Origin: Caulobacter sp. S45
GTDB taxonomy: Bacteria; Pseudomonadota; Alphaproteobacteria; Caulobacterales; Caulobacteraceae
DNA: 64,000 nt
Reading direction: 5' to 3'
Assembly (NCBI RefSeq): GCF_009765965.1
Contig: NZ_LMUL01000005.1
Location: forward strand, 20,561-84,560
The notes under the pieces are model-generated. The model did not search any database. It had not been told where the DNA came from and saw nothing but the letters and a program-made list of their open reading frames with translations. This document shows, piece by piece, positions 18,789 to 37,386 of this stretch (the first letter of the stretch is position 1; every line of letters starts with the position of its first letter). Both the position numbers and the translations under genes were made by a program.

Positions 18789-19835
18789 TCAGGGCTTCGC
18801 GCGCCCATCGCCGCTAACCGCCACTTCGAGCGAGTCGTATCCTCGCAGATGGTAGATCAAAGCGGAAACCAGCCAGCTGGCGATGAAAAGCCCGATGATG
18901 CCGAAGCCGATGGTCCCAGCATCTCGGGTCAGGGCGCCGATGCTTTCCCACACCCGGCCTTTCAGCTCGAGCTTATCGACCGCCAGGCCGAGCACCTCCA
19001 TCCCCCCGACCGCGACGGCGATGACGACCGACAGGAAGGTCATCGTCATGTTGTAATAGAGTTTCCGGATCGGCTTGATGAACGCCCAGCCGTAAGCGCC
19101 CAGCATGAGAATGCTGTCGGTGGTATCGACCAGAGACATGCCGGCGGTGAATAGGGCGGGATAGATCAGGATCGACCACATCGACGTGCCCTGAGACGCC
19201 TGGGTCGCCGAGATGCCGAGAAGCCCGATCTCGGTGGCGGTGTCGAAGCCCAAGCCGAACAGGAACCCCAGCGGGTACATGTGCCAGCTTCGTCGGATCA
19301 GGCCGAACAGCGGCCGCAGCAGTCTCACCAGCAAACCGCCGCCGGCCAGGGCCTCGTCCAGGGTCTCTTCCCGGTAGGGCCGGCCCTCCTTTACGCGCCA
19401 GAACGTCCGGCAAATCGTCGCGAGGATCACCAGGTTCATTGCGGCGACGGCCAGCAGGAACGAGGCCGACACGATCGTTCCAAAGGTGGCGCCGATCCGA
19501 TGCAGGGCGTCGAGTTGCCTGTGCAGCAGAGAGCCCGCGAACGCCAAGGCCACGCAGGCCAGGACCACCACTGTGGAGTGGCCCAGCGAGAAGAACAGGC
19601 CAACGCCGGTTGGCCGCTGGCCCTCCTGCATGAGCTTGCGGGTCACGTTGTCGATGGCGGCGATATGATCGGCGTCCACGGCATGACGCAGGCCCAGGCT
19701 ATAGGCGAGCAGAGCCGTCCCCAACATCAGCGGCTGATGCGGAAAGGCCATCGCCGCCCAGGTCCACGCGCCGAGGTTCAGGCCGATCAAGCCGATATAG
19801 ATGGCGGCGATCCGTGGGGCGATGGGCCCGCTCAT
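18789..19835 (-). CDS. High-affinity nickel/cobalt permease (NiCoT family)
   Basis: 348 aa with about eight membrane helices. The NiCoT signatures are all present: RHAVDADHIAAIDNVTR (metal selectivity filter in helix II), FSLGHSTVVV, LGFDTATEIGLLG and GMSLVDTTDS. It imports Ni2+ across the inner membrane. It is divergent from the CODH/hydrogenase operon, both of whose enzymes need nickel. An FNR-type box between the two start sites is well placed for this gene (TTTATC -10 at 19879-19884, 22 bp from the box). Confidence 0.93.
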   Translation of the reverse strand: MSGPIAPRIAAIYIGLIGLNLGAWTWAAMAFPHQPLMLGTALLAYSLGLRHAVDADHIAAIDNVTRKLMQEGQRPTGVGLFFSLGHSTVVVLACVALAFAGSLLHRQLDALHRIGATFGTIVSASFLLAVAAMNLVILATICRTFWRVKEGRPYREETLDEALAGGGLLVRLLRPLFGLIRRSWHMYPLGFLFGLGFDTATEIGLLGISATQASQGTSMWSILIYPALFTAGMSLVDTTDSILMLGAYGWAFIKPIRKLYYNMTMTFLSVVIAVAVGGMEVLGLAVDKLELKGRVWESIGALTRDAGTIGFGIIGLFIASWLVSALIYHLRGYDSLEVAVSGDGRAKP

Positions 19836-19906
19836 CTCTTATTCCAATCCGCAGACCGTCCGGCCGAGCACTCGTGGCGATAAACATCGCCTCGCCCGGC
19901 GGCGAC

Positions 19907-19920
19907 ATGACCTAGGTCAA
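19907..19920. promoter_or_regulatory. FNR-type box between the nickel permease and cooM
   Basis: ATGACCTAGGTCAA contains the perfect 12 bp palindrome TGACCTAGGTCA and fits TTGAY-N4-RTCAA at all but the first base. It is the only strong palindrome in the divergent region 19836-20017. For cooM on the plus strand the downstream -10 is weak (TCAATG), so the box may serve both directions unequally. Confidence 0.6.
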
Positions 19921-20017
19921 GGCGGAGCCGAATCCGTCGTGGTCAATGCGCTGCGATGACGGAGCCGCTCAACCTCTCGCCCATGCCGGCGGACACGACA
20001 GATCGCGCGGGACCGCC

Positions 20018-23000: not shown

Positions 23001-23815
23001 TCAGCCAGCTGGGTTATGTCCTGCTGGGCCTCTCGCTCGGGACGCCGCTCGGGATCGCCGGCGGGCTGATGCATGCGGTTAACCACATGCTGCTCAAGAA
23101 CACCCTGTTCCTGGTGGCGGGCTGCCTGATTTGCCAGGCGCCGGTCACGACCCTGGATGAGCTGGGCGGCCTGGGACGCCGCATGCCGGTGACTTTCGCC
23201 ATCTTCTTCTTCGCCGGTCTTTCGGTGTCGGGGATACCGCCGCTGAACGGCTTTTCCTCCAAGTGGATGATCTATCAGGCGGCCTTCCAGAGCGGCCATT
23301 ACCTGCTGGGCCTGGCTGCGATGCTGTCCAGTCTGTTCACCCTGGCGGCCATACTGAAGTTCGCCCACAGCGCCTTCATGGGACCGCCGTCGGCAGCGGC
23401 GCTGCTCATGACCGAACCGCCCCTGGTGATGCGCGTTCCCATGCTCATCCTGGTAGCCGCGAGCGTGGCCATCAGCGCCTTCCCCGGCCTGCTGCTGACG
23501 CCGATTTCCCACGTGCAGACTAGCCTCGGCCTACCGGCCGTGCCGGCCACCTGGCTGGGCGGCCTGCCAGGTCCGCTGCCGTGGCATCCGCTGGCCCTGG
23601 TGCTGGCCCTGGTCGCATCGGGCGGCCTGGGCTGGGCCTACCGGCACGCGTCCAACAGGCAGCGCGCGACAGGTCCGATCTACACCGGCGGCGCCGTCGC
23701 CATCGCCTCCGGCCGGATGGAGGTTCCCGCCTCATCGCTCTACGAGACGCCGGCGCGCCTGATCCGTCTGGCCCTGGGCGGCCCCACGCGCCCAGCGGAA
23801 GGCGGCCCGAAGTGA
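20018..23815 (+). CDS. cooM: CooM-like hydrogenase membrane subunit (fused antiporter-type modules)
   Basis: 1265 aa from MTHMSVLAWCGV. It is the large ion-pumping subunit of an energy-converting [NiFe] hydrogenase, homologous to NuoL/M/N. Three stretches follow one another. Residues 1-140 match only the second half of an antiporter module (RDFKRMLFFSTAAEAGYVLMG, SPFKGSFSKF). Residues about 300-690 are a full module (FWELMTWASYIL, KAGLFPFYTWVPEA, DIKRMLAYSTLAQMG, HTVNHALMK, PPFGGFVSKF). Residues about 830-1130 are another (FWELMSSWTLYL, GIKRVLIYSTVSQLG, HAVNHMLLKN, PPLNGFSSKW). The conserved Glu and Lys of ion channels are retained. Its stop overlaps cooK. Confidence 0.9.
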   Translation: MTHMSVLAWCGVILVLCGESLALASARDFKRMLFFSTAAEAGYVLMGWGVPTPLGHTGAVMHLMYQIVMRALVFVTAWRLMRRAGSSRTDDMVGSFAAAPLTSLMFGFAMFSVMGLSPFKGSFSKFVVLYAGIENGSWIITAAGTVGSILAAVYFLRSVQMVCFQQPRPDELPRLTAQPLRLGVDGVAMLLLGAVTVLMSLDPKPFLDASAHLVHVSDTARFPEFEAPWSLQILLPSVGAFAVFAAGRISARLREVAAAILATATFALVAATLHSGDLGDLFALLFAGVGLAVTVYSLSYMRQGRSLGRYYFFLFQMIGALIGVATSRHLGNFYLFWELMTWASYILVIHDQSEATLKAGAQYFLICTSGAYVMHFGILMLHARLGSFEIGAIAAGVGHLPLPVLMLITATFMVAFLAKAGLFPFYTWVPEAERVAPSGISAPMSAILAAAGLLGMMKILFAVLGAPALATVGTIGGLNAPGATLVLLGGVTLLIGEIGAYRQTDIKRMLAYSTLAQMGEVAMVLGVGSTLALTGALMHTVNHALMKSLLFFCVGAFALRTGAQSLKDLRGIGKAMPRTALAMAIGILAIMAVPPFGGFVSKFLMIYACVQAGQIPVAALMLVGGVIAAMYYARILRVVFFEPYRGPLVAEAPLSMQLVMGVLAVLIILNGLYPTLLLRLLVPVVASLAGHSALAPLALPPVVMHWSIAALIAALGSLVVFRLGRKSAACAGGLAVLTMALALGGVLFEAGRYDLLSFWFAILIAGVAVLNLAYSVGYMARGHSPNRYFFLFTMMVGGLLGLVASKDLFSFFAFWELMSSWTLYLVTIHEETEEALNEGYKYFIFNFVGASFLFLGVTTLAAQTHTFRIPELAHAASSVPALGLWGSLALILTGLLMKAAQLPLRIDYQMHPVPAPTPVSGYISAVLLKAGPWGVLKLFVAVGAAATFARAAHGSPWTPELMHVVALVATATLLYAGAKAMVETGIKRVLIYSTVSQLGYVLLGLSLGTPLGIAGGLMHAVNHMLLKNTLFLVAGCLICQAPVTTLDELGGLGRRMPVTFAIFFFAGLSVSGIPPLNGFSSKWMIYQAAFQSGHYLLGLAAMLSSLFTLAAILKFAHSAFMGPPSAAALLMTEPPLVMRVPMLILVAASVAISAFPGLLLTPISHVQTSLGLPAVPATWLGGLPGPLPWHPLALVLALVASGGLGWAYRHASNRQRATGPIYTGGAVAIASGRMEVPASSLYETPARLIRLALGGPTRPAEGGPK

Positions 23816-24771
23816 TCGGCGAGTTTTTCCGAATCCTGTTCGCCGTCCTCGTCTTCCCGGGCGGCCTGTTCGCCATCGCGCTCGGGCTGTTGCTCAAGGG
23901 CGTGGAGCGGCGGTTGGTGGCCAGACTGCAGCGGCGGATCGGGGCGCCGCTGCTGCAGCCCTTCTACGATCTCGTAAAGCTGATGGGGAAGATCACCTTC
24001 GTCCCGGACCTGGCGGACACGAACGTCTTCCTCATGACGCCCCTGATCGGGGTCGCCAGCATGAGCCTCGCCATGGCCATGCTGCCCATCGCAGGGGTGT
24101 ACGCGCCATCGCCCATGCTCGGCGATCTGCTAGTCCTGTTCTACGTGATCTCGCTGCCGGCATTGTCGCTGATGCTGGCGGGGTCGGCGTCCGGCTCGCC
24201 CTTCGGCGCCATCGGCTTCTCACGCGAGATGGCGCTGATGCTGGCCTATGAGGGGCCGATCCTGCTGGTCATCGTCAGCGTCGCCTTGCACGTGGGCGCC
24301 GCCTCGGGCCGCGGCCCGATGTTCAGCCTCGCCGAAATCGTCCAGTACCAGATCCGACACGGCCCCCTGATCCTTGACTGGCGGATGGTTCCCGCCGCCC
24401 TGGCCTACGCCGCCTTCATCCCGGCCAACCTCGGCATGCCGCCCTTCGACATCGCGGAGGCCGAGACCGAACTGCTGGAAGGGCCGTTGCTCGAATATAC
24501 CGGCGCCTCGCTCGGGTTGCTCAAGCTCGCATCGGCGATCAAGACCGTGGCCATAGCGGGGCTGGGCGTCGCCCTCTTCTTTCCCAATGGGCCCGGCGGC
24601 GTCCTCGGCGTTGTGGCGTTTGCAGCCAAATGCCTGGTGATCGTGGGCTGCCTGTCGGTCCTGAAGGCCGCGGTGGGGCGCATGCGCATCGACCAGGCCG
24701 TGGTCTTCTATCTGAGGTGGCCCGTCCTCTTCGGTGTGCTCTCGCTCGCCATGGTGGCGATCCATGTTTAG
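23812..24771 (+). CDS. cooK: CooK-like hydrogenase membrane subunit (NuoH/HycD type)
   Basis: 319 aa from GTG 23812, which overlaps the cooM stop (GTGA). Eight or so helices surround the NuoH-family loops LQRRIGAPLLQPFYDLVKLMGK and GMPPFDIAEAETELLEGPLLEYTG, the acidic loop that lines the quinone-like cavity in complex I and couples electron transfer to pumping in group 4 hydrogenases. It anchors the soluble CooLXUH module to the membrane next to CooM. Confidence 0.92.
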   Translation: MIGEFFRILFAVLVFPGGLFAIALGLLLKGVERRLVARLQRRIGAPLLQPFYDLVKLMGKITFVPDLADTNVFLMTPLIGVASMSLAMAMLPIAGVYAPSPMLGDLLVLFYVISLPALSLMLAGSASGSPFGAIGFSREMALMLAYEGPILLVIVSVALHVGAASGRGPMFSLAEIVQYQIRHGPLILDWRMVPAALAYAAFIPANLGMPPFDIAEAETELLEGPLLEYTGASLGLLKLASAIKTVAIAGLGVALFFPNGPGGVLGVVAFAAKCLVIVGCLSVLKAAVGRMRIDQAVVFYLRWPVLFGVLSLAMVAIHV

Positions 24772-24786: not shown

Positions 24787-25215
24787 ATGAACTTCATTTC
24801 CAAGGCTGCCAAGAAATCCCCGTGGATTTACCGGATCAACGCGGGGTCCTGTAACGGCTGCGACGTCGAGCTGGCCACCACCGCCTGTATTCCCCGTTAC
24901 GACATCGAACGCCTGGGCTGCCAATACTGTGGCAGCCCCAGGCATGCCGACATCATTCTGATCACCGGGCCGATAACGGTCGGGGTGAAGGACAAGCTCC
25001 TGCGCGTGTATGAGCAGGTGCCGGACCCCAAGGTCACCGTTGCCGTTGGCATCTGCCCCATCTCCGGTGGCGTCTTCCGGGAGAGCTACGCCATCGCCGG
25101 CCCGCTCGATCAGTTCGTCCCCGTCGACGTCAACATCGCCGGCTGTCCGCCCCGCCCGCAAGCCATCATCGAGGGCCTGGCGATGGCGATCGACATCTGG
25201 GCGTCGCGGGCCTAG
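24787..25215 (+). CDS. cooL: CooL-like hydrogenase small subunit (NuoB type)
   Basis: 142 aa. The four ligands of the proximal [4Fe-4S] cluster are visible as Cys22 and Cys25 (GSCNGCDVE), Cys90 (GICPISGG) and Cys120 (AGCPPRP). There is no twin-arginine signal, as expected of the cytoplasmic-facing group 4 enzymes. It passes electrons from the CooX clusters to the NiFe site in CooH. Confidence 0.93.
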   Translation: MNFISKAAKKSPWIYRINAGSCNGCDVELATTACIPRYDIERLGCQYCGSPRHADIILITGPITVGVKDKLLRVYEQVPDPKVTVAVGICPISGGVFRESYAIAGPLDQFVPVDVNIAGCPPRPQAIIEGLAMAIDIWASRA

Positions 25216-25217
25216 CC

Positions 25218-25718
25218 GTGAACTTCCTCCAGGTCCTGATCGACAATCTGCGCAAGGGGCCGGCGACCGAGCCCTTCCCGTTCGGCGACGCGTCCACGCC
25301 GGCCGCCTACCGCGGCCGCGTCGCGATCGACCAGGACGCCTGCGTCGGGTGCAGGATGTGCGAGCACGTCTGCGCCGGCGGCGCGATCCGCTTTGCGGAA
25401 GACAACGAGGCCCTGCACCTGGTGATCTGGCACAACACCTGCGTTTCGTGCGGACTGTGCGCTGTGTATTGCCCGACCAAGGCCATCACCCTGACCAACA
25501 ACTGGCATGTCTCCCATCGGCAGGAAGACAAGTACAAACAGGTGGATCACGTGACGATCCCTTATTCGGCCTGCACGTCATGCGGGGTTGTCTTCCTCAA
25601 AGCCCAGGATCCACTGATGCAGCTGGCGTACAAGACCGTGGGCGCAAACGAGACGCGCCTGCGTGACCTTTGCCCCGATTGTCGGCGCGTCGAGAGTAGC
25701 CGAGGCGCACGGCCATGA
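25218..25718 (+). CDS. cooX: CooX-like ferredoxin subunit (NuoI/HycF type)
   Basis: 166 aa from GTG 25218, two bases after the cooL stop. Two ferredoxin motifs hold two [4Fe-4S] clusters: CVGCRMCEHVC and CVSCGLCAVYC. It links CooF to CooL. An extra pair of CxxC motifs in the C-terminal third (CTSCG near residue 118 and CPDC near residue 152) could bind a metal ion or a further cluster; this part is longer than in a minimal NuoI core. The gene overlaps cooU by four bases. Confidence 0.9.
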   Translation: MNFLQVLIDNLRKGPATEPFPFGDASTPAAYRGRVAIDQDACVGCRMCEHVCAGGAIRFAEDNEALHLVIWHNTCVSCGLCAVYCPTKAITLTNNWHVSHRQEDKYKQVDHVTIPYSACTSCGVVFLKAQDPLMQLAYKTVGANETRLRDLCPDCRRVESSRGARP

Positions 25719-26227
25719 GCGATGCGCCCTCCAGTTCGACCGAGCTGACGCCTGTGCTCAAAGGCATACGAGGCGAATTGACCTTCACGACCACCTCGCG
25801 GGGTCCGATGACCGCCTGGGTGACGCTCGTCGACAAGGCCGATCTAAGCGTCGCTGCGCGAGCGTTGAAGATGGTCGGCGCCCGGCTGAGCGTCATCACC
25901 GCCTTCGTGCGCGACGCTTCGGGCGCCAACCCGCTGGCCTATCTCTTCGACGTGGACGGCGCCAACGTGACCCTCAGGGTTCGGGTCGCGCCTGGGGATG
26001 CCGTCGAAACCCTCGTGCCGATGTTCCGGAACGCAGACTGGCTCGAGCGCGAGTTGATGGAGCTGTTCGACATCCAGGTCTCGGGCCGGGCCAACAGCCC
26101 TCGCCTGTTTTTGGACGAGAGCGTCGACGCCCATGTCATGGATCGGCTGGTCCCGCTCTCGGTACTGGCCAACGCCGCCAGCACGGAAGTGCTGTTCCAG
26201 CGTATCGCCGAGACTGGAGAGGGCTGA
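25715..26227 (+). CDS. cooU: CooU-like hydrogenase subunit (NuoC / HycE N-terminal type)
   Basis: 170 aa starting at ATG 25715 within the cooX stop. The family hallmark is the helix NADWLERELMELFDIQVSG (the NuoC WxERExxDxFG region), placed near residues 107-125, after beta strands such as AYLFDVDGANVTLRVRV. It carries no cofactor and holds CooH in place. Its stop codon overlaps the cooH start (TGATG). Confidence 0.9.
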   Translation: MSDAPSSSTELTPVLKGIRGELTFTTTSRGPMTAWVTLVDKADLSVAARALKMVGARLSVITAFVRDASGANPLAYLFDVDGANVTLRVRVAPGDAVETLVPMFRNADWLERELMELFDIQVSGRANSPRLFLDESVDAHVMDRLVPLSVLANAASTEVLFQRIAETGEG

Positions 26228-27315
26228 TGACGCGCACCTTCGACATCCCCATAGGACCGCTCCACGTCGCGCTCGAAGAGCCGATGTATTTCAAGGTGGG
26301 CGTCGAGGGAGAAACCATCACGGCGCTGGATCTGTACGCCGGCCACGTGCACCGCGGCATCGAATATCTAACGGCCAAGCGGAACATCTACCAGAACATG
26401 GTGCTGCTGGAGCACGTCTGTTCGCTCTGCTCCAACAGCCACCCCGAAACCTTTGCCATGACGCTGGAGGCCATCGCCGGGATCGAAGTGCCGCCCCGCG
26501 CCCACTACCTCCGCATGATCGCCGACGAGATCAAGCGCACCGCCTCGCACATGTTCAACGTGGCCATACTGGCCCACATCATCGGCTTCGACTCTCTGTT
26601 CATGCATGTGATGCAGGCGCGCGAGATCATGCAGGACGTCAAGGAGACGATCTTCGGCAACCGCATGGATATCGCCGCCAACATCATCGGCGGCGTCCGC
26701 TACGACCTCGACGCGACGTCCATCGCCTTCCTGCTGAACCAGCTCGATCAATTGGAACCCGTGCTGCGCGACGAGATCATCCCGATCTACGCGACGAACC
26801 GAAGCGTCCTGTCCCGGACCAAGGGGATCGGTCACATCAGTCGGGCGGACTGCGTCGACTACGGCCTGATGGGGCCGACCGCGCGGGGATCGGGCTTGGC
26901 CTACGACGTGCGCCAGGTCGCACCCTATTCCGCCTATGGCGAGATCGAGTTCGAAGCCCAGAGCCTGCCCGACGGGGATGTCTGGTCGCGCGCCATGGTC
27001 CGCTTGAAGGAAGCGCTGAGCTCCATCGCCATTCTGCGCGAGTGCGTGCGGCGGCTGCCGCCGGGTCCGATCTCAGCGGGACCCCTGCCCCGGATTCCCG
27101 CCGGGGAGGCCATCGCCAAGACCGAAGCGCCCCGCGGCGAGCTCGTCTACTACGTCACCACCGACGGAACCGACGTGCCCGCCCGGGTGCGCTGCCGTGT
27201 GCCCAGCTACATGAACTGGGAGGCGCTCAAGGTGATGATGAAGGGCGGCCACGTGTCCGACATCCCGCTGATCGTCAATAGTATCGATCCCTGCGTCTCC
27301 TGCACCGAACGTTGA
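26227..27315 (+). CDS. cooH: CooH-like [NiFe] hydrogenase large (catalytic) subunit
   Basis: 362 aa from ATG 26227. The open frame runs further upstream, but that part translates cooU DNA in another frame. The NiFe ligands are Cys65 and Cys68 (HVCSLCSN) and Cys356 and Cys359 (DPCVSC). The enzyme reduces protons to H2 with electrons from CO. The protein ends DPCVSCTER, exactly at the position where other hydrogenases are cut by a maturation protease, so it lacks the removable C-terminal tail. No hycI-type protease gene is present. An FNR box overlaps the stop codon and begins the next transcription unit. Confidence 0.94.
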   Translation: MTRTFDIPIGPLHVALEEPMYFKVGVEGETITALDLYAGHVHRGIEYLTAKRNIYQNMVLLEHVCSLCSNSHPETFAMTLEAIAGIEVPPRAHYLRMIADEIKRTASHMFNVAILAHIIGFDSLFMHVMQAREIMQDVKETIFGNRMDIAANIIGGVRYDLDATSIAFLLNQLDQLEPVLRDEIIPIYATNRSVLSRTKGIGHISRADCVDYGLMGPTARGSGLAYDVRQVAPYSAYGEIEFEAQSLPDGDVWSRAMVRLKEALSSIAILRECVRRLPPGPISAGPLPRIPAGEAIAKTEAPRGELVYYVTTDGTDVPARVRCRVPSYMNWEALKVMMKGGHVSDIPLIVNSIDPCVSCTER

Positions 27316-27353
27316 TCGAGATCAAAGCCGCGTCCTGGAGGACCCGTTATCTA
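27312..27353 (+). promoter_or_regulatory. FNR-type class II promoter of hypA-cooFSCTJ
   Basis: TTGATCGAGATCAA (27312-27325) is a full-consensus FNR/FixK box. TATCTA at 27348-27353 lies 22 bp further on, the spacing that puts the box at -41.5. The box overlaps the cooH stop codon, so the distal genes can be transcribed without the hydrogenase genes. hypA starts 63 bp downstream. Confidence 0.75.
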
Positions 27354-27415: not shown

Positions 27416-27784
27416 ATGCATGAAGTCGCGATCGCCTGCGCCCTGTTCGACACCGTAAGCGCCCAGGCGGCGCGGTTTCCGCGCGAGCGGGTGGTCGGCG
27501 TGACCCTCAGCATCGGCGGACTCCAGGCCCTGGAGCCGCACGCGATCCGCACCTGCTTCGCCCTGCTGGCGGAAGGCACCAACGTGGCGGGAGCGGAACT
27601 GGTCGTCGAACGTCAGGCAGTGAGGGTGTTTTGCCGATCGTGCGATGGCGAACATACCGCCGACACCCGCTTCCACTGCCGCGCCTGCGGAGGCGACCAG
27701 GTTCGATTGCTCCCATCCCGCGGCATGACCGTGGACAGGATCGTGATGCGGGAAGAAGCGACCACCATGGAGAAGGCGGCATGA
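27416..27784 (+). CDS. hypA: Hydrogenase nickel-insertion protein HypA
   Basis: 122 aa from ATG 27416, giving MHEVAIACALF with the N-terminal Met-His nickel site; the longer frame upstream would bury it. The zinc site is the two CxxC pairs in FCRSCDGEHTADTRFHCRACGGD (residues about 72-95). HypA receives nickel with HypB and passes it to CooH. It stands at the head of the CODH genes, directly after cooH, and overlaps cooF by four bases. Confidence 0.93.
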   Translation: MHEVAIACALFDTVSAQAARFPRERVVGVTLSIGGLQALEPHAIRTCFALLAEGTNVAGAELVVERQAVRVFCRSCDGEHTADTRFHCRACGGDQVRLLPSRGMTVDRIVMREEATTMEKAA

Positions 27785-28379: not shown

Positions 28380-30377
28380 ATGGCTTGCGCTACCTGCTCC
28401 AACGGCTCTGCGGACGCCTGCGCGACCCATATGCTGGACGTGGCCGAAGCCGACCACATCGAGACGGCCTTCAGCCGTTACGCCAAGCAGCAGCCCCAAT
28501 GCGGCTTCGGCACCGCCGGCCTGTGTTGCCGCATCTGCCTGCAGGGACCCTGTCGGATCGACCCGTTTGGAAACGGCCCGCAATACGGGGTCTGTGGCGC
28601 GGACCGCGACACCATCGTCGCCCGCCACCTGGTGCGCATGATGGCGGCGGGGACCGCGGCCCACTCCGAGCATGGACGTCACATCGCCCTGGCGCTGCTG
28701 CATGTCGGCGACCACAAGCTGGTCGACTACGATGTGCATGACGACGAAAAGCTCCATGTCGTGGCGACGCGTATGGGCGTCGAGACCGAAGGGCGCGAGC
28801 AGTCGGCCATCGTCCATGACCTCGCTGAGCTTACGTTGGACGATTATCAGAACCAGGACTACGACAAGCCCTGCCACTGGCTGAGTGCGTCCCTGCCCCC
28901 CCCACGGCTAAAGAAGCTCAACGACCTGGGCCTGCTTCCGCACAATATCGACGCCACCATATCGCAGTCCATGTCGCGCACCCACATGGGCTGCGACGCG
29001 GATCCGGGCAATCTGATCCTGGGCGGCCTGCGTGTGGCCCTGGCGGACCTCAACGGCGAGATGCTCGCCACCGAACTTTCGGATGTGCTGTTCGGCACCC
29101 CCATGCCGGTCGCGAGCACGGCAAACCTCGGCGTTCTCAAGCGCAACGCGGTCAATGTCGCGGTGAACGGCCACAACCCGCTGCTCAGCGAGATCATCTG
29201 CAACGTGGCCGCCGACCTCCACGACGAGGCTGTCGCCGCCGGCGCCCCGGACGGCATCAATATCGTCGGCGTCTGCTGCACCGGCAACGAGTTGATGATG
29301 CGCCACGGCGTGCCGCTGGCGACCAACTACCTGTCCCAGGAGCTGCCGATCCTGACCGGGGCGCTGGAGGCGATGGTGGTGGACGTGCAATGCGTCATGC
29401 CTTCGCTGCCCCGGGTCGCGGCCTGCTTCCACACCAAGATCATCACCACCGACAAGCAGAACAAGATCACCGGCGCGACCCATATCGAGTTCGATGAATA
29501 CCGGGCCAGCGAGATCGCGCACGAAATCTTGCGGGTCGCCATCTCCAACTTCAAGCGGCGCGACCAGAAGCGCATCGACATCCCCAACATCAAGCAGGAA
29601 GCTCTGGTCGGGTTCAGCACCGAGGGCATCATCTCGGCCCTGGCGAAGGTCAACCCGCAGGACCCGCTGCAGGCGCTGGTCGACAACATCGCCAACGGAA
29701 ATATCCAGGGCATCGTCCTGTTCGCCGGCTGCAACAACGCCAAGATCAAGCAGGACGAAAACTATCTGGTCATGGCCAAATCGCTCGCCAAGCGCAACGT
29801 CCTGGTCATCGCCACCGGGTGCGCGTCGGGCGCCTTCGCCAAGGGCGGCATGATGACCAGCGCCGCGACGGCGCAGTATGCAGGCGAGGGCCTGGCCGGG
29901 GTGCTAACCGCCATCGGCGAGGCCGCCGGCCTGGGCGGGGCGCTCCCGCCGGTCCTGCACATGGGCGCCTGTGTCGACAACAGCCGCGGCGTGGCGCTCG
30001 CCACCGCGCTGGCGAACAAGCTGAAGGTCGACATCTCCGATCTTCCCCTCGTCGCCAGCGCGCCCGAAGCGATGTCGGAGAAGGCGATGGCCATCGGCAC
30101 TTGGTCGGTAGCGCTGGGGATCCCGACCCATCTCGGCACCGTTCCGCCGGTGGTCGGCTCCGACACCGTGACCGATCTGATCACCAACGCGGCGAAGGCC
30201 CAGCTCGGCGGCTACTTCATCGTCGACACCGATCCCAAACGCGCCGCCGACAAGCTTTTCGCGGTCATTCAGGAGCGCCGCGCCGGGCTCGGGCTCTCGA
30301 CCGTCGCACTGGCGCCCAAGCCGGCCACCTTCCAGTTGGCCCAACCGCGCACCGCTTCCGCATTGTTGGCGTCATGA
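28380..30377 (+). CDS. cooS: Anaerobic Ni-Fe carbon monoxide dehydrogenase CooS
   Basis: 665 aa. It oxidises CO to CO2 at the C-cluster. The cluster ligands can be counted off. D-cluster: Cys41 and Cys49. B-cluster: Cys50, 53, 58 and 72. C-cluster: His265, Cys300, Cys338, Cys451, Cys481 and Cys531. Lys568 and the histidines around 95-101 (HSEHGRH) provide proton transfer. As I recall, these positions coincide with those of the Rhodospirillum rubrum enzyme. A tail of about 25 residues (from ALAPKPATF) extends past the core. CTGGAG precedes the start, and the stop overlaps cooC. Confidence 0.96.
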   Translation: MACATCSNGSADACATHMLDVAEADHIETAFSRYAKQQPQCGFGTAGLCCRICLQGPCRIDPFGNGPQYGVCGADRDTIVARHLVRMMAAGTAAHSEHGRHIALALLHVGDHKLVDYDVHDDEKLHVVATRMGVETEGREQSAIVHDLAELTLDDYQNQDYDKPCHWLSASLPPPRLKKLNDLGLLPHNIDATISQSMSRTHMGCDADPGNLILGGLRVALADLNGEMLATELSDVLFGTPMPVASTANLGVLKRNAVNVAVNGHNPLLSEIICNVAADLHDEAVAAGAPDGINIVGVCCTGNELMMRHGVPLATNYLSQELPILTGALEAMVVDVQCVMPSLPRVAACFHTKIITTDKQNKITGATHIEFDEYRASEIAHEILRVAISNFKRRDQKRIDIPNIKQEALVGFSTEGIISALAKVNPQDPLQALVDNIANGNIQGIVLFAGCNNAKIKQDENYLVMAKSLAKRNVLVIATGCASGAFAKGGMMTSAATAQYAGEGLAGVLTAIGEAAGLGGALPPVLHMGACVDNSRGVALATALANKLKVDISDLPLVASAPEAMSEKAMAIGTWSVALGIPTHLGTVPPVVGSDTVTDLITNAAKAQLGGYFIVDTDPKRAADKLFAVIQERRAGLGLSTVALAPKPATFQLAQPRTASALLAS

Positions 30378-31150
30378 AGATCGCAGTGACCGGCAAGGGC
30401 GGGGTCGGCAAATCCACCATCGTGGGTATGCTGGCGCGCGCCCTCAGCGAGCAAAGCTGGAAGGTGCTCGCCATCGACGCCGATCCGGACGCCAACCTGG
30501 CCTCGGCGATCGGCGTCCCCCCAGAGTTGCTCGCGGAGTTGCGGCCGATCTCGGCGATGAAGGATCTCGCCTTGGAGCGCACCGGGGCGACCCCGGGCTC
30601 CGGCGCCTTCTTCATCCTGAACCCCAGGGTCGACGACATCCCCGATCGCTTCTCGGTCGAACACGCGGGGGTGAAGCTCCTGGCGATGGGAACGATCGAG
30701 CATGCCGGCGGCGGATGCGTCTGTCCGGAGCACGCGCTCGTGCGGACCCTGCTGCGCCATATCCTGACCCGTCGCGACGAGAGCGTCCTGATCGACATGG
30801 AAGCCGGCATCGAGCATTTCGGGCGGGGGACCATCGAGTCGGTGGATCTGCTGATCATCGTCGTGGAGCCCGGAACCCGGAGCTTCCAGACCGGCCAACA
30901 GATCGAACGGCTCGCGCGCGAACTCGGCATCAAGCAGATCTGCTACGTCGCCAACAAGGTGGCGTCGGCCGAAGATCAAGCCTTCATCCTGGAGCACGCC
31001 GCCGGGCGCGATCTTCTGCTGTCGATGCCGTTCGACCGGGAAGTCCAGATCGCCGATCAGGCAGGCGTATCGTGTTACGACCAGAGCAAAGACTTTCGCG
31101 AGCGGGCCCACGCATTCGCCCAAGAAGTGACCCGCAGGGTCGTACACTAG
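30374..31150 (+). CDS. cooC: CODH nickel-insertion ATPase CooC
   Basis: 258 aa from ATG 30374 inside the cooS stop. It is a MinD-type deviant Walker A ATPase (GKGGVGKST, residues 8-16) with a second Asp motif IDADPDANLA and the metal-binding CVCPEH (Cys115 and Cys117), where dimeric CooC binds Ni2+ or Zn2+. It matures the C-cluster of CooS using ATP. No other candidate for this job is in the window. Confidence 0.94.
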   Translation: MKIAVTGKGGVGKSTIVGMLARALSEQSWKVLAIDADPDANLASAIGVPPELLAELRPISAMKDLALERTGATPGSGAFFILNPRVDDIPDRFSVEHAGVKLLAMGTIEHAGGGCVCPEHALVRTLLRHILTRRDESVLIDMEAGIEHFGRGTIESVDLLIIVVEPGTRSFQTGQQIERLARELGIKQICYVANKVASAEDQAFILEHAAGRDLLLSMPFDREVQIADQAGVSCYDQSKDFRERAHAFAQEVTRRVVH

Positions 31151-31163: not shown

Positions 31164-31367
31164 ATGTGCATGGGAAAGGTCATCGTCATGGGATCGGGGA
31201 CCGATCCGCGGGAAATCTCCGACGTCATCGACATCACGACGGATGGATCGACCGTGAAGATACTGACGCTGTTTGGCGAGGAGCACCGATTTTCGGACGT
31301 TGCGATCGACCACGTGGCGATGAACGCTGGCGTAGTCATCTCCCTGATCCCGGCGGCGCCCCAATGA
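31164..31367 (+). CDS. cooT: CooT-like nickel-binding protein
   Basis: 67 aa from ATG 31164, giving MCMGKVIVMG. An ATG 12 bp upstream is in frame, but this start has GTGGAG at a suitable distance and places Cys at position 2, the nickel ligand reported for R. rubrum CooT. The rest is a small beta-barrel-like sequence (ISDVIDITTDGSTVKILTLFGEEHRF). It helps deliver nickel to CooS. It overlaps cooJ by four bases, as expected from the coo gene order. Confidence 0.85.
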   Translation: MCMGKVIVMGSGTDPREISDVIDITTDGSTVKILTLFGEEHRFSDVAIDHVAMNAGVVISLIPAAPQ

Positions 31368-31642
31368 GCCCCGCCGAAACCGACGAACGCGGGCGGCAAA
31401 GGTTCGCCGTGATGCTCGCCCATCTCATCGAGCACACAGAGAGCCATACCGCCGAACTGGCCTATGGGAGCGGCGCGCTGGCCACCGACGCCGTTGCGAC
31501 CCGCCTGCTGGATACCGCCCTTGCCGACCTCGCCGTCGCTCACCAGTCACTCGGGCGCCTGTTGGAGCTGCTCAGCGGGGATCGGGGCGGGGCTGAGCCG
31601 CATATGCACGCGCATACGCACGCCCATTCCCACGCAACCTAG
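31364..31642 (+). CDS. cooJ: CooJ-like histidine-tailed nickel chaperone
   Basis: 92 aa from ATG 31364, inside the cooT stop. A helical body (RQRFAVMLAHLIEHTESHTAELAYG, then LADLAVAHQSLGRLLELL) is followed by a tail with alternating His (HMHAHTHAHSHAT, six His in thirteen residues). The tail is much shorter than the His-rich region I know for R. rubrum CooJ, so storage capacity is probably lower. The position after cooT and the His tail support the name; the body diverges strongly. Confidence 0.78.
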   Translation: MSPAETDERGRQRFAVMLAHLIEHTESHTAELAYGSGALATDAVATRLLDTALADLAVAHQSLGRLLELLSGDRGGAEPHMHAHTHAHSHAT

Positions 31643-31703: not shown

Positions 31704-31940
31704 ATGTGTCTGGCCGTTCCAGCCGAGGTGATCGAACTGCTTGCCGGGGACATGGCGCGGGTCAGCGTCGGCGGCGTCGTCCAGGTCGCGAGCATGATTC
31801 TACTCGAAGATGTGCAGGTCGGCGACTACGTGCTTCTGCATGTCGGCTTCGCGCTGAGCCGTATCGATATCGCGGCGGCGCGGGCCACCATGGGCCTGCT
31901 CAGCGAACTCGGGATGGTGCGCCAAGGCGTGACCCCATGA
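31704..31940 (+). CDS. hypC: Hydrogenase assembly chaperone HypC
   Basis: 78 aa. It starts MCLAVPAEVIEL, with the essential Cys2 that carries the Fe(CN)2CO unit, followed by the HypC beta-barrel (GDMARVSVGGVVQVASMILLEDVQVGDYVLLHVGFALSRID). It works with HypD and then docks on CooH. It overlaps hypD by four bases. Confidence 0.94.
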   Translation: MCLAVPAEVIELLAGDMARVSVGGVVQVASMILLEDVQVGDYVLLHVGFALSRIDIAAARATMGLLSELGMVRQGVTP

Positions 31941-33076
31941 GGTTCATGCACGAGTTTCGCGACGGCGAACTTGGCCGCGGGATCTGCACCACGATCGCCG
32001 AAGCCTGCCGCCCCGGCCGCAACTACGTCTTCATGGAAGTCTGCGGCGGCCACACCCATACCATTGCTCGCTATGGGCTGGAGGCGCTTCTGCCCGCCCA
32101 GGTCCGCCTGGTCCACGGGCCGGGCTGCCCGGTCTGCGTCCTGCCGACCGGGCGGATCGACGGCGCCATCGCGCTCGCCCGCGACCAAGGCGTGATCCTG
32201 TGCACCTACGGCGACATGATGCGGGTGCCCGGCTCCCATCGCACCTCTCTGATCCAGGCCAAGGCTGCTGGCGCCGACGTGCGCATGGTGCTGTCGACGC
32301 TCCGTGCGCTGGAGATCGCCAAGGAAAACCCGGATCGACAGGTGGTCTTCCTGGGCATCGGCTTCGAGACCACCAGCCCCGCCACCGCCATCGCGCTCAA
32401 GATGGCCAGGCGCGAGGCGTTGGCGAATTTCAGCGTCCTGTGCGACCACGTCCTGACCCCTCCGGCGATCCAGGCGGTGCTCGGTGAGGGCGGCGAGGCG
32501 CTGCAGGGGCTGATCGCGCCGGGCCACGTCTCGGCGGTGATCGGGACGCGGCCCTACCAGGCGTTCGCCGACCGCGGCCAGGCGGTCTACGTCGCTGGCT
32601 TCGAGCCGCTCGACATCCTGCAGGCCGTGCTGATGCTGATCCGGCAGGTGAACGAGGGCCGCCCTCGGGTCGAGAACGGCTACGCGCGGGCCTTGACGGA
32701 GGATGGCAACCTGCGGGCGCAAGCCGCCATCGCCGAGACGATGCCCGACCTGCGCTCATTCGAATGGCGCGGTCTGGGCGTGCTCCCGCAAAGCGCGCTG
32801 CAGATCGGCGAGGCGTTCGCCGACTTCGACGCCGAACGTCGCTTCGCTCTGACTTACGCCCCCGCCCCCGACGCCAAATCCTGCGCCTGCGCCGATGTGA
32901 TCCGAGGCCGTCGGCGACCCGAAGAGTGCAAACTGTTCGGTAGCGTCTGCACGCCGGACGACCCGATCGGCTCCTGCATGGTGTCCAACGAGGGCGCATG
33001 CGCCGCGCACTGGCGCTATGGCCGCCATCGTCCGCAGCGTGGCGGCGAAGCTAGCGCCGCCCCCGCAGCGGCTTAG
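31937..33076 (+). CDS. hypD: Hydrogenase maturation protein HypD
   Basis: 379 aa from ATG 31937. The diagnostic motifs are MEVCGGHTHTIARYG, VHGPGCPVCVLP, GFETTSPATA and the C-terminal [4Fe-4S] cysteines (CACADVIRG, then EECKLFGSVCTP and GACAAHW). HypD is the scaffold on which the Fe(CN)2CO group is built, with HypC and HypE. The tail is Ala-rich. An FNR promoter begins 33 bp after its stop. Confidence 0.95.
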   Translation: MRFMHEFRDGELGRGICTTIAEACRPGRNYVFMEVCGGHTHTIARYGLEALLPAQVRLVHGPGCPVCVLPTGRIDGAIALARDQGVILCTYGDMMRVPGSHRTSLIQAKAAGADVRMVLSTLRALEIAKENPDRQVVFLGIGFETTSPATAIALKMARREALANFSVLCDHVLTPPAIQAVLGEGGEALQGLIAPGHVSAVIGTRPYQAFADRGQAVYVAGFEPLDILQAVLMLIRQVNEGRPRVENGYARALTEDGNLRAQAAIAETMPDLRSFEWRGLGVLPQSALQIGEAFADFDAERRFALTYAPAPDAKSCACADVIRGRRRPEECKLFGSVCTPDDPIGSCMVSNEGACAAHWRYGRHRPQRGGEASAAPAAA

Positions 33077-33109: not shown

Positions 33110-33151
33110 TTGATCTGGGTCAAGTCGGCTGATCGCGTTCGCGCCTACCCT
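33110..33151 (+). promoter_or_regulatory. FNR-type class II promoter of hypBFE
   Basis: TTGATCTGGGTCAA (33110-33123) fits the FNR/FixK consensus, and TACCCT lies at 33146-33151 after 22 bp. It would start a transcript about 65 bp before hypB, making a third oxygen-controlled entry point into the cluster. Confidence 0.7.
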
Positions 33152-33220: not shown

Positions 33221-34054
33221 ATGTGCACGGTCTGTGGATGCGACGGGGCGACGATCGAGGTGGCGATCGCGGGACGCGCTCACGCCCATCCAACCCACGA
33301 CGCCCCTCCTCACCACCATGACGCCGAGACCGGCGACATCGATTTCGGCGCGGGCGTCGCGGGCGTCCAAGTGCCCGGCATGAGCCAGGACCGGATCATC
33401 CGGCTCGAACGCGACCTTCTCTCCAGCAACAACACCTATGCCGCGATCAACCGGATGCGGCTGCACGCGGCGGGTGTCTTCGCGCTCAACCTCGTCGCCA
33501 GTCCGGGTTCGGGCAAGACCACCCTGCTGGTGCGCGCCATCGCCGACCTCAGGTCTCGGTTTCGAATCTCGGTGATCGAAGGCGACCAGCAGACCTCCAA
33601 TGACGCCGACCGCATCCGCGCCACCGGCGCCCCCGCCATTCAGATCAATACCGGCAAGGGATGTCATCTGGACGCGCACATGGTCGGCCATGCGCTAGAT
33701 AAGCTTTCGCTACCGACCGGCGCCCTGCTCTTCATCGAGAACGTCGGCAATCTTGTCTGTCCCGCCGCCTTCGATCTGGGCGAGGCGCACAAGGTCGTGG
33801 TGCTTTCGGTGACCGAGGGCGAGGACAAGCCGATCAAATATCCCGACATGTTCGCCAACGCCGACGTCATGCTGCTCAACAAGGCCGATCTACTGCCGTA
33901 TCTGGATTTCGACGTCACCGCTTGCCTGAAATTCGCCCGGCGTGTGAACCCAAGGATCGAGATCTTCGTGGTCTCTGCGCGCACGGGAGAGGGCTTGGCT
34001 CCCTTCTACGACTGGATCGAAACCCACGCCCGGCCCCGAGCGGCGGCGGAATAG
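33221..34054 (+). CDS. hypB: Nickel-handling GTPase HypB
   Basis: 277 aa from ATG 33221, preceded by TTGGAGGACG. It starts MCTVCGCDG, the CxxCxC high-affinity nickel site, followed by a short His-rich stretch ([14 protein letters not shown]). The GTPase domain shows [10 protein letters not shown] (P-loop), [13 protein letters not shown], the Cys/His metal site in TGKGCHLD, and NKADLLPY for guanine. HypB gives nickel to HypA for CooH; the modest His stretch adds some storage. Confidence 0.95.
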
Positions 34055-34060
34055 ACCGCC

Positions 34061-36343
34061 GTGGCCGCCGCTCTCTCCATCGCCGCCGAGGCGCTCAGCG
34101 AGCGGCGCCGCCTGCGTGTGCGAGGCGCCGTCCAGGGCGTAGGCTTTCGTCCGTTCGTTCACCGACTGGCCTTGCGCTATGAACTCTCGGGGTTCGTATT
34201 GAACGACAGCGACGGCGTGTTGATCGAGGTCGAAGGCGTGCGGCTCGACGCCTTTATCGGCGCGCTCGAGCAGGAGCCCCCGCCCCTCGCCCGCATCGAC
34301 AGCCTGGAGATCGCCACCGTCCCGTCCACGTGGCGCGGCGGTTTCGAGATCCGCGAGAGCATCGGTGGCCGCACACAGACACGGATTGTCCCGGACGCCG
34401 GCGTCTGCTCGGTCTGCCTGGAGGATCTGTTCGATCCTAGCAGCCGCTTTCATCTCTATCCCTTAGTCACCTGCACCGATTGCGGCCCGCGCTTCACCAT
34501 CGTCCGCGCGCTTCCCTATGATCGGGCGCGAACCGCCATGGCGACCTTCCCGCCCTGCGAAGCGTGCGCCTGCGACTACGCCGATACGACCGGGCGGCGC
34601 TTCCATGCCGAGACCATCGCCTGCCCGGCCTGCGGGCCGAGCCTCAGCCACCCGATCGAAACGATCGCCGAAGCTTTGGCCAAGGGCCGCATCGTGGCGC
34701 TGAAGGGAATCGGGGGATTCCACCTGATGTGCGATGCGCGCAACGAGACCGCCGTGGCGGAGCTGCGACGGCGCAAGCGGCGCGACGCCAAGCCGTTTGC
34801 GGTCATGGTCGCCAACCCAGCCTCAGTCGACCAGATCGCCGTCCCCAGCGCCGCCGAGCACGCGCTCATGGCGCTCAGCGCAAGGCCCGTCGTGCTGCTG
34901 CGCCGCCGGGAGGGTCTCGCGCCCTCTGTCGCTCCCCGGCTGGACCGGCTCGGCGTAATGCTTCCCTACGCGCCCGTGCACCATCTGGTCTTCCACGCGA
35001 TGGCGCGAGGCAGCGTCGAGCCGCTCTCGCATTCGGCGGCGCAGCCGACCGTCCTGGTCGCCACCAGCGCCAATCTCGGCGGCGAGCCCCTGATCATCGA
35101 CGACGAGGACGCCAGGCGACAGCTTGCCGGCGTCGCCGATCTGACCGTCACCCATGACCGCCAGATCGTGGTCCGGACCGACGACTCCGTCATGGCGGTG
35201 ATCGCCGGCGCGCCGGCCTACCTGCGGCGCGCCAGGGGCTTCGTCCCCGAACCCATCGAGCTGAAGGGGGACGGACCGCCCGCCCTCGGCGCCGGCGGAT
35301 TGCTCAAGGCGACGGTCACGGTCGTGCGTGGCCGCGAGGCCTTTGTCTCCCAGCACATCGGCGATCTCCGAAACGCCGCAACGATCAGTTTTTACGAGGA
35401 GACCGCGCGACGCCTGCTCGAAACCCTCGACGTCCGGCCCGAAGCGATCGGCTGCGACCTGCATCCGGACTTCCCATCCACCCGCTTCGCCGCGCGACTG
35501 GCGCAAGGCCATGGCGCTCGGCTGGTCCAGGTTCAGCACCACGTCGCCCATATAGCCGCCGTGGCCGCCGAGCACCGGCTGACCGGCCCGGTCCTGGGCG
35601 TCGCGCTCGACGGTCATGGCCTGGGGGCGGATGGCGGCGCGTGGGGCGGCGAGCTCGTGCAGCTCGACGGCGCGGATTGGGTCCGGCTCGGCCATCTGGC
35701 GCCGCTCCCGCTGCCCGGCGGCGACCGCGCCGCGCGGGAGCCTTGGCGCATGGGTGTCGCGGCCCTGACCGCGCTCGGCCGAGCGGACGAGGCGGCGCGT
35801 TGGTTCGCCGACATCCCTCTAGCGGTGGATGTCGCGCACCTGTGTTTGACGCCCGCAGGCGTGTCGACAACCACCAGCATGGGCCGCCTGTTCGACGCTG
35901 CCGCAGCCCTGCTGGGCGTTTGCCCCTATCAGAGTTATGAGGCCCAGGCGGCGATGGAGCTCCAGGCCTTGGTGCGCACGCCGCGCGTCCTGCCGGACGG
36001 CTATCGGCTCGCGGCGGGCGTCTTGGATTTCCGGCCCTTGCTAGCGACCCTCCCGGAGCTTCGCAGCGACCCGGTTCTCGGCGCCGAACTGTTTCACGGC
36101 GTCGTGGTCCAAGGCCTCACCGCATGGATCGCCGAGGCCGCTTCACGCCGACATCTAAAGCAAGTAGCGCTGGGAGGCGGCTGTCTAATGAACGCGGTAT
36201 TGGCCGAAGGGCTTTCGGCGGCGCTGCGTGACCGGGGTCTCGAGCCCTGGCTGCCGCGGGCGGCGCCGGCGAACGACGGAGGCCTCTCGCTCGGTCAAGC
36301 GGCGCTAGCCCGCATCCACGCCGGCCATGCCGTCGCCTCATGA
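34061..36343 (+). CDS. hypF: Carbamoyltransferase HypF
   Basis: 760 aa from GTG 34061. Domains in order: acylphosphatase (RGAVQGVGFRPFVHRLA, residues about 20-100); two zinc fingers (CSVCLEDLF, CTDCGPRFT, CEACACDY, CPACGPS); a YrdC-like domain that makes carbamoyl-adenylate (about 205-390); and a Kae1-like domain (HHVAHIAAVAAEHRL, ALDGHGLGADG, GGCLMNAVL). It moves the carbamoyl group onto the last Cys of HypE for cyanide synthesis. The hypE start lies within its stop. Confidence 0.95.
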   Translation: MAAALSIAAEALSERRRLRVRGAVQGVGFRPFVHRLALRYELSGFVLNDSDGVLIEVEGVRLDAFIGALEQEPPPLARIDSLEIATVPSTWRGGFEIRESIGGRTQTRIVPDAGVCSVCLEDLFDPSSRFHLYPLVTCTDCGPRFTIVRALPYDRARTAMATFPPCEACACDYADTTGRRFHAETIACPACGPSLSHPIETIAEALAKGRIVALKGIGGFHLMCDARNETAVAELRRRKRRDAKPFAVMVANPASVDQIAVPSAAEHALMALSARPVVLLRRREGLAPSVAPRLDRLGVMLPYAPVHHLVFHAMARGSVEPLSHSAAQPTVLVATSANLGGEPLIIDDEDARRQLAGVADLTVTHDRQIVVRTDDSVMAVIAGAPAYLRRARGFVPEPIELKGDGPPALGAGGLLKATVTVVRGREAFVSQHIGDLRNAATISFYEETARRLLETLDVRPEAIGCDLHPDFPSTRFAARLAQGHGARLVQVQHHVAHIAAVAAEHRLTGPVLGVALDGHGLGADGGAWGGELVQLDGADWVRLGHLAPLPLPGGDRAAREPWRMGVAALTALGRADEAARWFADIPLAVDVAHLCLTPAGVSTTTSMGRLFDAAAALLGVCPYQSYEAQAAMELQALVRTPRVLPDGYRLAAGVLDFRPLLATLPELRSDPVLGAELFHGVVVQGLTAWIAEAASRRHLKQVALGGGCLMNAVLAEGLSAALRDRGLEPWLPRAAPANDGGLSLGQAALARIHAGHAVAS

Positions 36344-37386
36344 ACCGGGCGGGCTATGCACGCCGGTTGGACCTTCAGCATGGGCGGGTGGACATGTCGC
36401 ACGGCTCGGGCGGACGGGCCATGGCGCAGCTAATTTCGGAAGTCTTCCACCCGGCCTTCGCCAATGAATGGCTGAGCCGGGGAAACGACCAGGCGGCCTT
36501 CGACGCCCCCGTGGGGCGAATGGTGATGTCGACCGACGCCTATGTCGTCTCGCCCCTGTTCTTTCCAGGCGGTGATATCGGCTCCCTCGCTGTCCACGGC
36601 ACCATCAACGACGTGTCCATGGCCGGCGCGCGGCCACTCTATCTGTCGGCGAGCTTTATCCTCGAAGAAGGGTTTGCGCTGGCCGATCTCAAGCGCATCG
36701 CCGACAGCATGGGCGCCGCAGCCCGCGACGCTGGCGTACCGATCATCACCGGCGACACCAAGGTGGTGGAGCGGGGCAAGGCCGATGGCGTCTTCATCTC
36801 CACCACGGGGGTGGGCGTCGTGCAGGGAGGCCTGGACCTCTCGGCGGACAAGGCCCGGCCGGACGACCAGGTGCTCGTATCGGGTTTTATCGGCGACCAT
36901 GGGGTCGCGATCATGTCCAAGCGCCAGAACACCGCCTTCGACACTGATCTGGTCTCCGACTCCGCCGCCCTGCATGGCCTGGTCGCCGACATGGTAGCGG
37001 CGGCAGGCCTGGGGCTTCGCGTGATGCGCGATCCCACCCGCGGCGGCGTCGCCGCGGTCTTAAACGAACTGGCCCAGCAGTCAGGCGTGGGCTTCCTCAT
37101 CGAGGAGTCGGCCCTGCCAATACGACCACAGGTCGTCGCCGCCTGCGAGCTTCTCGGGCTCGATCCCCTCTGCGTCGCCAACGAGGGCAAGCTGATCGCC
37201 GTCGTCGCCCCGGAGTTCGCCCAATCGTTGATCGAGGCCATGCACGCCCATCCACTGGGCCGGGACGCGACGATCATCGGCAAGGTCGTGGAGGACGACC
37301 ATCACTTCGTGCAGATGACCACCAGCTTCGGCGGGGACCGGATCATCGATTGGCTATCGGGCGAACAACTACCCCGCATCTGCTGA
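36340..37386 (+). CDS. hypE: Carbamoyl dehydratase HypE
   Basis: 348 aa. A PurM-like ATP-binding protein (MSHGSGGRAMAQLI, STDAYVVSPLFFPGGDIGSLAVHGTINDVSMAGA, then DPTRGGVAAVLNELA). It ends in PRIC with the terminal Cys that carries thiocarboxamide and is dehydrated to thiocyanate. With HypF it makes the CN ligands of CooH. It is the last gene of the coo-hyp run. The following 217 bp to the convergent ackA hold no gene I can support. Confidence 0.95.
   Translation: MNRAGYARRLDLQHGRVDMSHGSGGRAMAQLISEVFHPAFANEWLSRGNDQAAFDAPVGRMVMSTDAYVVSPLFFPGGDIGSLAVHGTINDVSMAGARPLYLSASFILEEGFALADLKRIADSMGAAARDAGVPIITGDTKVVERGKADGVFISTTGVGVVQGGLDLSADKARPDDQVLVSGFIGDHGVAIMSKRQNTAFDTDLVSDSAALHGLVADMVAAAGLGLRVMRDPTRGGVAAVLNELAQQSGVGFLIEESALPIRPQVVAACELLGLDPLCVANEGKLIAVVAPEFAQSLIEAMHAHPLGRDATIIGKVVEDDHHFVQMTTSFGGDRIIDWLSGEQLPRIC

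Follow-up and report, generated by a model that had tools for sequence, protein, structure and literature searches.

The window analysed here is a 64,000-nucleotide stretch of the Caulobacter sp. S45 genome (bases 20561-84560 of the 163,864-base contig C19; 4.89 Mb in 19 contigs, completeness 98.98%), and it contains a cluster that is, by every sequence test made, a complete set for hydrogenogenic CO oxidation. We propose, with a probability of about 0.65, that this is a CO dehydrogenase/energy-converting hydrogenase (CODH/ECH) module of the Rhodospirillum rubrum type, wired into the anaerobic regulon of its host and gated by oxygen through an FnrL-like activator. The module looks to have lost, or never to have had, the CO sensors CooA and RcoM. 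It is also rather probable that a CO switch has been swapped for an oxygen switch, placing CO dehydrogenase and hydrogenase in an ordinary anoxia response, where they would draw maintenance energy from trace CO in a cell with its own terminal oxidase. It is the control that is the new element; the gene order mixes known themes.

FNR-type boxes and the FnrL-like regulator

The FnrL/FixK anaerobic regulon of Alphaproteobacteria is marked by TTGAY-N4-RTCAA boxes, an FnrL-like regulator and a box before cydAB, and the same three elements are found here. The window has eight exact matches to this pattern; 100 shuffles averaged 0.12 and never gave more than 1. Ten 20-kb stretches of the chromosome (200 kb) and the remaining 100 kb of contig C19 contain no exact box, and 80 other CooS loci hold 7 in 1.17 Mb. 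When up to one mismatch is allowed, the window has 14 sites, compared with 2.6 expected from shuffles. Seven of the eight exact boxes lie in gaps before genes (Table 1). Gaps in the array are longest between NiCoT and cooM (182 nt), hypD and hypB (144 nt), and cooH and hypA (100 nt), and each of these three holds a box, so that every unit of the array has one in front of it (two exact and one with a single mismatch).

The two CooA promoters of R. rubrum presumably precede cooM and the cooF unit. Here FNR-type boxes occupy the corresponding places, ahead of cooM and of hypA-cooF, and hypBFE is preceded by another. On this ground oxygen would be the main switch, with the FnrL-like protein as the candidate that binds the boxes. 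In the mechanism proposed, this protein would act as an oxygen-sensing activator from the boxes before cooM, hypA-cooF and hypB. The array would be expressed when oxygen runs out, alongside cytochrome bd and the fermentation enzymes, and CO would provide a small energy yield during anoxia.

Compared with the NCBIfam profiles, the regulator matches FnrL best (E 1e-52), ahead of FixK and Fnr. It has the N-terminal cysteines of an FNR-type regulator, and these probably hold an Fe-S cluster, given the cysteine spacing rule that we take to identify such proteins. The genes for the regulator, for cytochrome bd and for fermentation are found 5-17 kb downstream of the array and are accompanied by the same boxes. 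The box ahead of cydA is centred about 78 nt before the ATG. In nine family relatives, these being the cydAB matches examined among a longer list, it is found at nearly the same distance, exact in six and in seven if one mismatch is allowed. This conservation suggests that the motif is functional in the family.

A preliminary description of this DNA had taken the neighbours of the cluster to be those of an otherwise aerobic organism. The sequence does not support this: downstream, cytochrome bd, CydDC, phosphoketolase-acetate kinase, the dehydrogenases, the stress protein and the FnrL-like regulator form a low-oxygen or fermentative set. An aerobic molybdenum CO dehydrogenase in the same genome was also considered and rejected. 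No form I CoxL was found, the best of 11 CoxL matches in the genome reaching 434 bits against a cut-off of 991, and the motif AYxCSFR, which we take to be that of form I CoxL, is missing from the two longest frames at each of four CoxL-like loci.

Control by CooA is rejected, no CooA having been found in the genome: nothing matched better than E 0.01, and the three weak matches (best E 0.011) cover the C-terminal, DNA-binding half only. RcoM control is rejected in the same way. The genome has two LytTR proteins, neither with a PAS match at E 0.001, and with no PAS domain on either there is no RcoM among them. One regular expression for a CooA-like site found none in the window, and there are no regulator genes inside the array. 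In a 2026 survey (PMC13077300), CO regulators lie next to the locus in 99 of 179 Ni-CODH/ECH genomes and are absent from it in the other 80, for which the trigger is left open.

Several points weigh against oxygen gating through this regulator. The regulator scores 178.6 bits, under the cut-off of 300 for the FnrL equivalog (NF045989). Among solved structures it is closest to FixK2, in a match that leaves out its N-terminal cysteines, and FNR comes second. The box binder may be another CRP/FNR protein of the genome. The eighth exact box, at 5283, sits within an efflux-pump gene, which means that not every box is a promoter. (The gene belongs to an RND-type efflux set at 2454-8406, comprising an AcrB-like pump, an HlyD-type adaptor and an outer membrane protein.) Five of the six one-mismatch sites are within genes, the remaining one (19907) being that in the NiCoT-cooM gap; with its mismatch, its five intragenic sister sites and the number of sites expected by chance, the cooM box is less secure than the other two in the array. 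The cydA box is absent in two of the nine relatives. Finally, FNR-type boxes may be compatible with CO control on top, and the sensor searches covered CooA and RcoM, so a CO sensor of the CorQR type may lie outside them.

The last points lead to the alternative that survives best, namely a conventional CO-inducible coo cluster, in which expression would follow CO through an unrecognised sensor, whether CorQR, a remote heme regulator or some CRP-family protein recruited for CO, and the FNR boxes would only add anaerobic permission. The 99 genomes with an adjoining CO regulator speak for it, as does the reach of the sensor searches, which took in CooA and PAS-LytTR proteins and may have passed over CorQR or a CRP/FNR paralogue. 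However, no CooA, PAS-LytTR protein, CooA-like site in the window or regulator in the array was found, and we regard this alternative as rather unlikely.

The coo array and its products

The preliminary description had listed a complete cluster of 18 genes between positions 18789 and 37386, and this is borne out: all 18 are open and in the order that it gave. The array consists of a divergent NiCoT gene (minus strand) and 17 co-directional genes, cooMKLXUH-hypA-cooFSCTJ-hypCDBFE. There are 4-base overlaps at cooM/K, cooX/U, hypA/cooF, cooS/C, cooT/J, hypC/D and hypF/E, and a 1-base overlap at cooU/H, a pattern as in translationally coupled operons. The starts of CooM, CooK (GTG), CooH, HypA, CooC, CooT, HypD and HypB were refined to those in Table 1.

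The hydrogenase subunits and CooF matched only broader families (NuoM/MrpD, NuoH, NuoB, NuoI, NuoC, NuoD and HydN-like), and their names are family matches plus gene order, CooU being the weakest. CooC, CooT and CooJ had no NCBIfam equivalog match and were named from solved structures. It is worth adding that ARAGORN called a tRNA-Ala antisense within cooH (26631-26708), which is most likely a false positive.

Table 1 Features of the coo array and its surroundings, in window coordinates.
Feature	Position	Strand	Remarks
IS6-family element (17849-18686) with repeated 63-bp right end	17849..18749	-	NF033587 180 bits, cut-off 125; left cluster border
NiCoT nickel/cobalt permease	18789..19835	-	TIGR00802 400 bits, cut-off 333
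FNR-type box ATGACCTAGGTCAA, one mismatch	19907..19920	.	NiCoT-cooM gap; centre ~105 nt before cooM ATG
cooM, large antiporter-like membrane hydrogenase subunit, 1265 aa	20018..23815	+	NuoM/MrpD-like, two halves
cooK, NuoH-like membrane subunit	23812..24771	+	family match; GTG start
cooL, NuoB-like hydrogenase small subunit	24787..25215	+	best solved relative MbhJ 6cfw, E 6e-48
cooX, NuoI-like iron-sulfur subunit	25218..25718	+	family match
cooU, NuoC-like subunit	25715..26227	+	weak, E 1.7e-9
cooH, [NiFe] large subunit	26227..27315	+	both CxxC motifs; without C-terminal tail
FNR-type box TTGATCGAGATCAA, exact	27312..27325	.	overlaps cooH stop codon; centre ~98 nt before hypA ATG
hypA	27416..27784	+	TIGR00100 69 bits, under cut-off 88; MHE start
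cooF, electron-transfer ferredoxin	27781..28359	+	HydN-like family match
cooS, Ni-CO dehydrogenase, 665 aa	28380..30377	+	TIGR01702 808 bits, cut-off 478
cooC, nickel-insertion ATPase	30374..31150	+	solved CooC 3kje, E 3.1e-43
cooT, nickel chaperone	31164..31367	+	6y8v E 1e-10; Pfam CooT 24.8 bits, just below cut-off 27
cooJ, His-rich nickel chaperone	31364..31642	+	6hk5 E 1.8e-12; His-rich tail
hypC	31704..31940	+	over NCBIfam cut-off
hypD	31937..33076	+	over NCBIfam cut-off
FNR-type box TTGATCTGGGTCAA, exact	33110..33123	.	hypD-hypB gap; centre ~105 nt before hypB ATG
hypB, Cys-rich and His-rich N-terminus	33221..34054	+	over NCBIfam cut-off
hypF	34061..36343	+	over NCBIfam cut-off
hypE	36340..37386	+	over NCBIfam cut-off
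Acetate kinase	37604..38809	-
Phosphoketolase	38760..41180	-
Alcohol dehydrogenase AdhP (41301-42353) and aldehyde dehydrogenase (42404-43801)	41301..43801	-
Two exact FNR-type boxes (43972, 44009)	43972..44022	.	upstream of aldehyde dehydrogenase
FnrL-like regulator, proposed activator	44445..45197	-	N-terminal Cys cluster and central Cys
Two exact FNR-type boxes (45276, 45337)	45276..45350	.	between regulator and BON-domain gene
BON-domain protein	45420..46082	+
Universal stress protein	46113..46940	+
cydC (47986-49608) and cydD (49619-51259), CydDC exporter	47986..51259	-
Exact FNR-type box	51293..51306	.	between cydD and cydA
cydA and cydB, cytochrome bd oxidase	51377..54142	+
Other IS6-family copy, oriented like the left one, to which it is 81% identical	57059..57841	-	right border of 38-kb segment

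CooS has the full ligand set that had been claimed for it, with the ligands of the B, C and D clusters present. The residues found are Cys 41, 49, 50, 53, 58, 72, 300, 338, 451, 481 and 531, together with His 265, His 95/98/101 and Lys 568; their roles as metal ligands or functional residues are presumed. The alignment to residues 5-639 of chain 1jqk is free of gaps, with 467 of 635 residues identical (73.5%). We take the structures 1jqk (CO dehydrogenase), 6y8v and 6hk5 to be those of R. rubrum proteins. CooH has the motifs C66xxC69 and C357xxC360, and it stops three residues past the last cysteine, so there is no C-terminal tail to cleave. HypA begins with MHE, CooT has a cysteine at position 2, CooC has a P-loop and HypB has Cys- and His-rich stretches; we assume these features, and the rich stretch of CooJ, to be functionally meaningful. 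The three nickel factors (CooC, CooT and CooJ) and the six Hyp proteins (HypA, HypB, HypC, HypD, HypE and HypF) of the preliminary description are all there, CooF is encoded with CooS as well, and so is the CooMKLXUH hydrogenase with its [NiFe] ligands.

From this protein set, the predicted chemistry is CO + H2O -> CO2 + H2 with ion pumping, which is of an already known kind. Going by homology and the intact motifs, CooS would oxidise CO to CO2, and CooF would relay the electrons to CooMKLXUH, a membrane hydrogenase that would reduce protons to H2 while pumping ions. NiCoT, CooCTJ and HypABCDEF would serve for nickel supply and for the assembly of both metal sites. The catalysis by the CooS/hydrogenase complex, and its direction, are predicted on the same grounds.

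The chemistry of CO dehydrogenase and hydrogenase is reversible, and the complex might run mainly in reverse (H2-driven CO2 reduction), or it might be a detoxifier that removes CO to protect haem proteins, for example the terminal oxidase encoded nearby. However, no acetyl-CoA synthase gene is present in the array (the genome was not searched for one), and energy conservation is what the antiporter-like CooM, CooK and the full nickel supply would fit. The role reported for Parageobacillus is survival, not growth or detoxification (PMC13077300). As the main mode of the complex, either function is improbable.

Comparison with known coo systems

The closest resemblance is to the coo genes of R. 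rubrum, with which the array shares its protein set, the high identity of CooS (the R. rubrum CooS being a clade F query in PMC13077300), the three nickel factors and the cooFSCTJ order. The differences are in arrangement and control. In R. rubrum the hydrogenase module lies more than 400 bp from the CODH genes (PMC13056359), whereas here there is one continuous array. There CooA drives two operons, cooMKLXUH and cooFSCTJ, the cooA gene is beside the CODH genes and no hyp genes are nearby (PMC4257681). In contrast, the array here includes NiCoT, hypA and hypCDBFE, FNR-type boxes are present and the genome yielded no CooA-like protein.

The preliminary description had drawn attention to hypA between cooH and cooF and to the other hyp genes after cooJ. 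It was right that both differ from R. rubrum, but neither is a peculiarity of this cluster. In the CODH-I/ECH cluster of Carboxydothermus hydrogenoformans, hypA has the same place, between cooH and cooFS, and the coo/hyp1 cluster of Rubrivivax gelatinosus CBS is known to have all its hyp genes in the coo region (PMC4257681). The C. hydrogenoformans cluster differs in that cooA and hypC precede cooM (PMC4257681); here cooA is lacking, hypC lies further downstream, and cooS is followed by cooCTJ. The Rubrivivax cluster has rcoM, with cooA elsewhere and cooFSC named (PMC4257681), and no such PAS-LytTR regulator was found here.

A further likeness is to the CODH/Hyf system of Parageobacillus, a CODH/ECH without a CO regulator, whose expression occurs when electron acceptors are absent, does not depend on CO and is tied to electron-acceptor limitation (PMC13077300). 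The hydrogenase of that system is of the group 4a Hyf type and Rex is predicted to control it (PMC13077300), compared with a Coo-type hydrogenase and FNR-type boxes here, and oxygen gating would agree with it in spirit. In the parts of the literature examined, no FnrL/FixK regulon with a coo cluster as a member was met, and the texts on cooS, FNR and the hydrogenogenic metabolism of R. rubrum described no FNR boxes on a coo cluster.

Distribution and origin of the cluster

The preliminary description had called such clusters unexpected in an otherwise aerobic, non-phototrophic alphaproteobacterium, and no other sampled genome of the lineage has CooS. In overlapping samples, the present genome is the only one with CooS among 398 of the order (one of 60 genera), among 385 of the class (one of 277 genera) and among three of the genus, the two genus mates without it being 96% and 85% complete. 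In the phylum sample (n=398), two other genomes have a CooS, 46-47% identical. By comparison, CODH/ECH was reported in 179 of 306,260 screened genomes, of which 42 are Pseudomonadota (PMC13077300). In the literature searched, nothing beyond PMC8921683 turned up that pairs CO or CODH with Caulobacter, Caulobacterales or Caulobacteraceae, and no literature was found on CooS/CooH CODH gene transfer in Alphaproteobacteria. A 16S comparison with plasmid records supports a place in Alphaproteobacteria only: 549 records matched, none above 95% identity, the best full-length match reached 90.6% (Rhizobium), and the 20 listed all belong to that class. Three chromosome stretches compared with plasmid records had mixed best matches, with Asticcacaulis in one case.

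A CooH search of 198 other genomes of the family found matches in five, with 28-30% identity and E values of 1e-40 or below. These are unlikely to be [NiFe] hydrogenases, since no CxxC motif is present at the four of five loci where the frame was read. The four (L085, L086, L087 and L089) encode HycE/NuoD-like proteins, possibly of hydrogenase-related complexes unable to hold a [NiFe] site. Of the 80 other CooS loci, one has a CooH-like neighbour above 120 bits and none a CooT or CooJ match. That scan was seeded on exact short peptides, R. rubrum-type clusters were not returned and many loci are incomplete, so it says little on close relatives. The exact CooS peptide seeds had no match in viral contigs, and two plasmid records hold a CooS (34 and 42% identical). 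A TGA suspected inside two distant CooS matches lies downstream of CooS in the frames read.

The cluster lies in a 38-kb segment that is bracketed by IS6-family elements and also holds the fermentation genes, the regulator and cydDC-cydAB. The element ends were set by aligning genomic copies. The divergence of the two copies (Table 1) means that this is not a fresh composite transposon. The element has 35 matches in the genome, 11 of them on C19 (3.3% of the genome); elsewhere, identity is 91-93% for the matches on C12, C13 and C14, and 82% for that on C9 (2.76 Mb). An imperfect second right end (18687-18749; after 57829; C19:145378-145522) represents a tandem end repeat. An SDR-DoxX fusion gene (16915-17848) has lost its 5' part where the left element starts, and an RHS-repeat protein of 1445 residues (58551-62888) adjoins the right one. 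C19 is rich in insertion sequences, with IS110-type and IS6-type transposases (window 9550-10572 and 57059-57841). Its translations outside the window include a serine recombinase as well as transposases, but inspection by eye revealed no gene for replication or transfer, no profile search being made.

The patchy distribution, together with the IS6 element at the left edge, suggests that the cluster was acquired by horizontal transfer. Its composition is host-like. The GC content is 66.5%, with 66.9% and 64.0% in the window flanks and 64.1-69.2% in the ten chromosome stretches, and the tetranucleotide distance to the chromosome is 0.136, compared with 0.145 +/- 0.018 among 10-kb chromosome pieces, although the greater length of the cluster lowers its distance somewhat.

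This raises the possibility of a passenger, brought by insertion sequences and intact but unused by the host. The two flanking IS6 copies in the same orientation, the cut SDR-DoxX gene and the single occurrence of CooS in the order would fit such an origin. The 18 intact genes with their ligands, the host-like composition and the three array gaps with boxes of the kind found before cydA in relatives argue the other way, and make a passenger decidedly improbable. That the contig was misbinned from another organism is very improbable indeed: bins can mix contigs and both genus mates lack CooS, but estimated contamination is 0.67%, the same IS6 element is on C12, C13, C14 and C9, cluster and flanks are chromosome-like in composition, and the cydDC-cydAB order matches that of family relatives.

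Oxygen gating through the FnrL-like activator offers a candidate answer to the question of what triggers a CODH/ECH without a CO sensor, here for a cluster of the R. rubrum type: the three FNR-type boxes, together with a regulator at a distance of 7 kb. The box scan could be extended to other sensor-less genomes. If the proposal is true, hydrogenogenic CO oxidation would not be a speciality of CO-sensing carboxydotrophs, and in some Alphaproteobacteria it would be part of the general anoxia programme.

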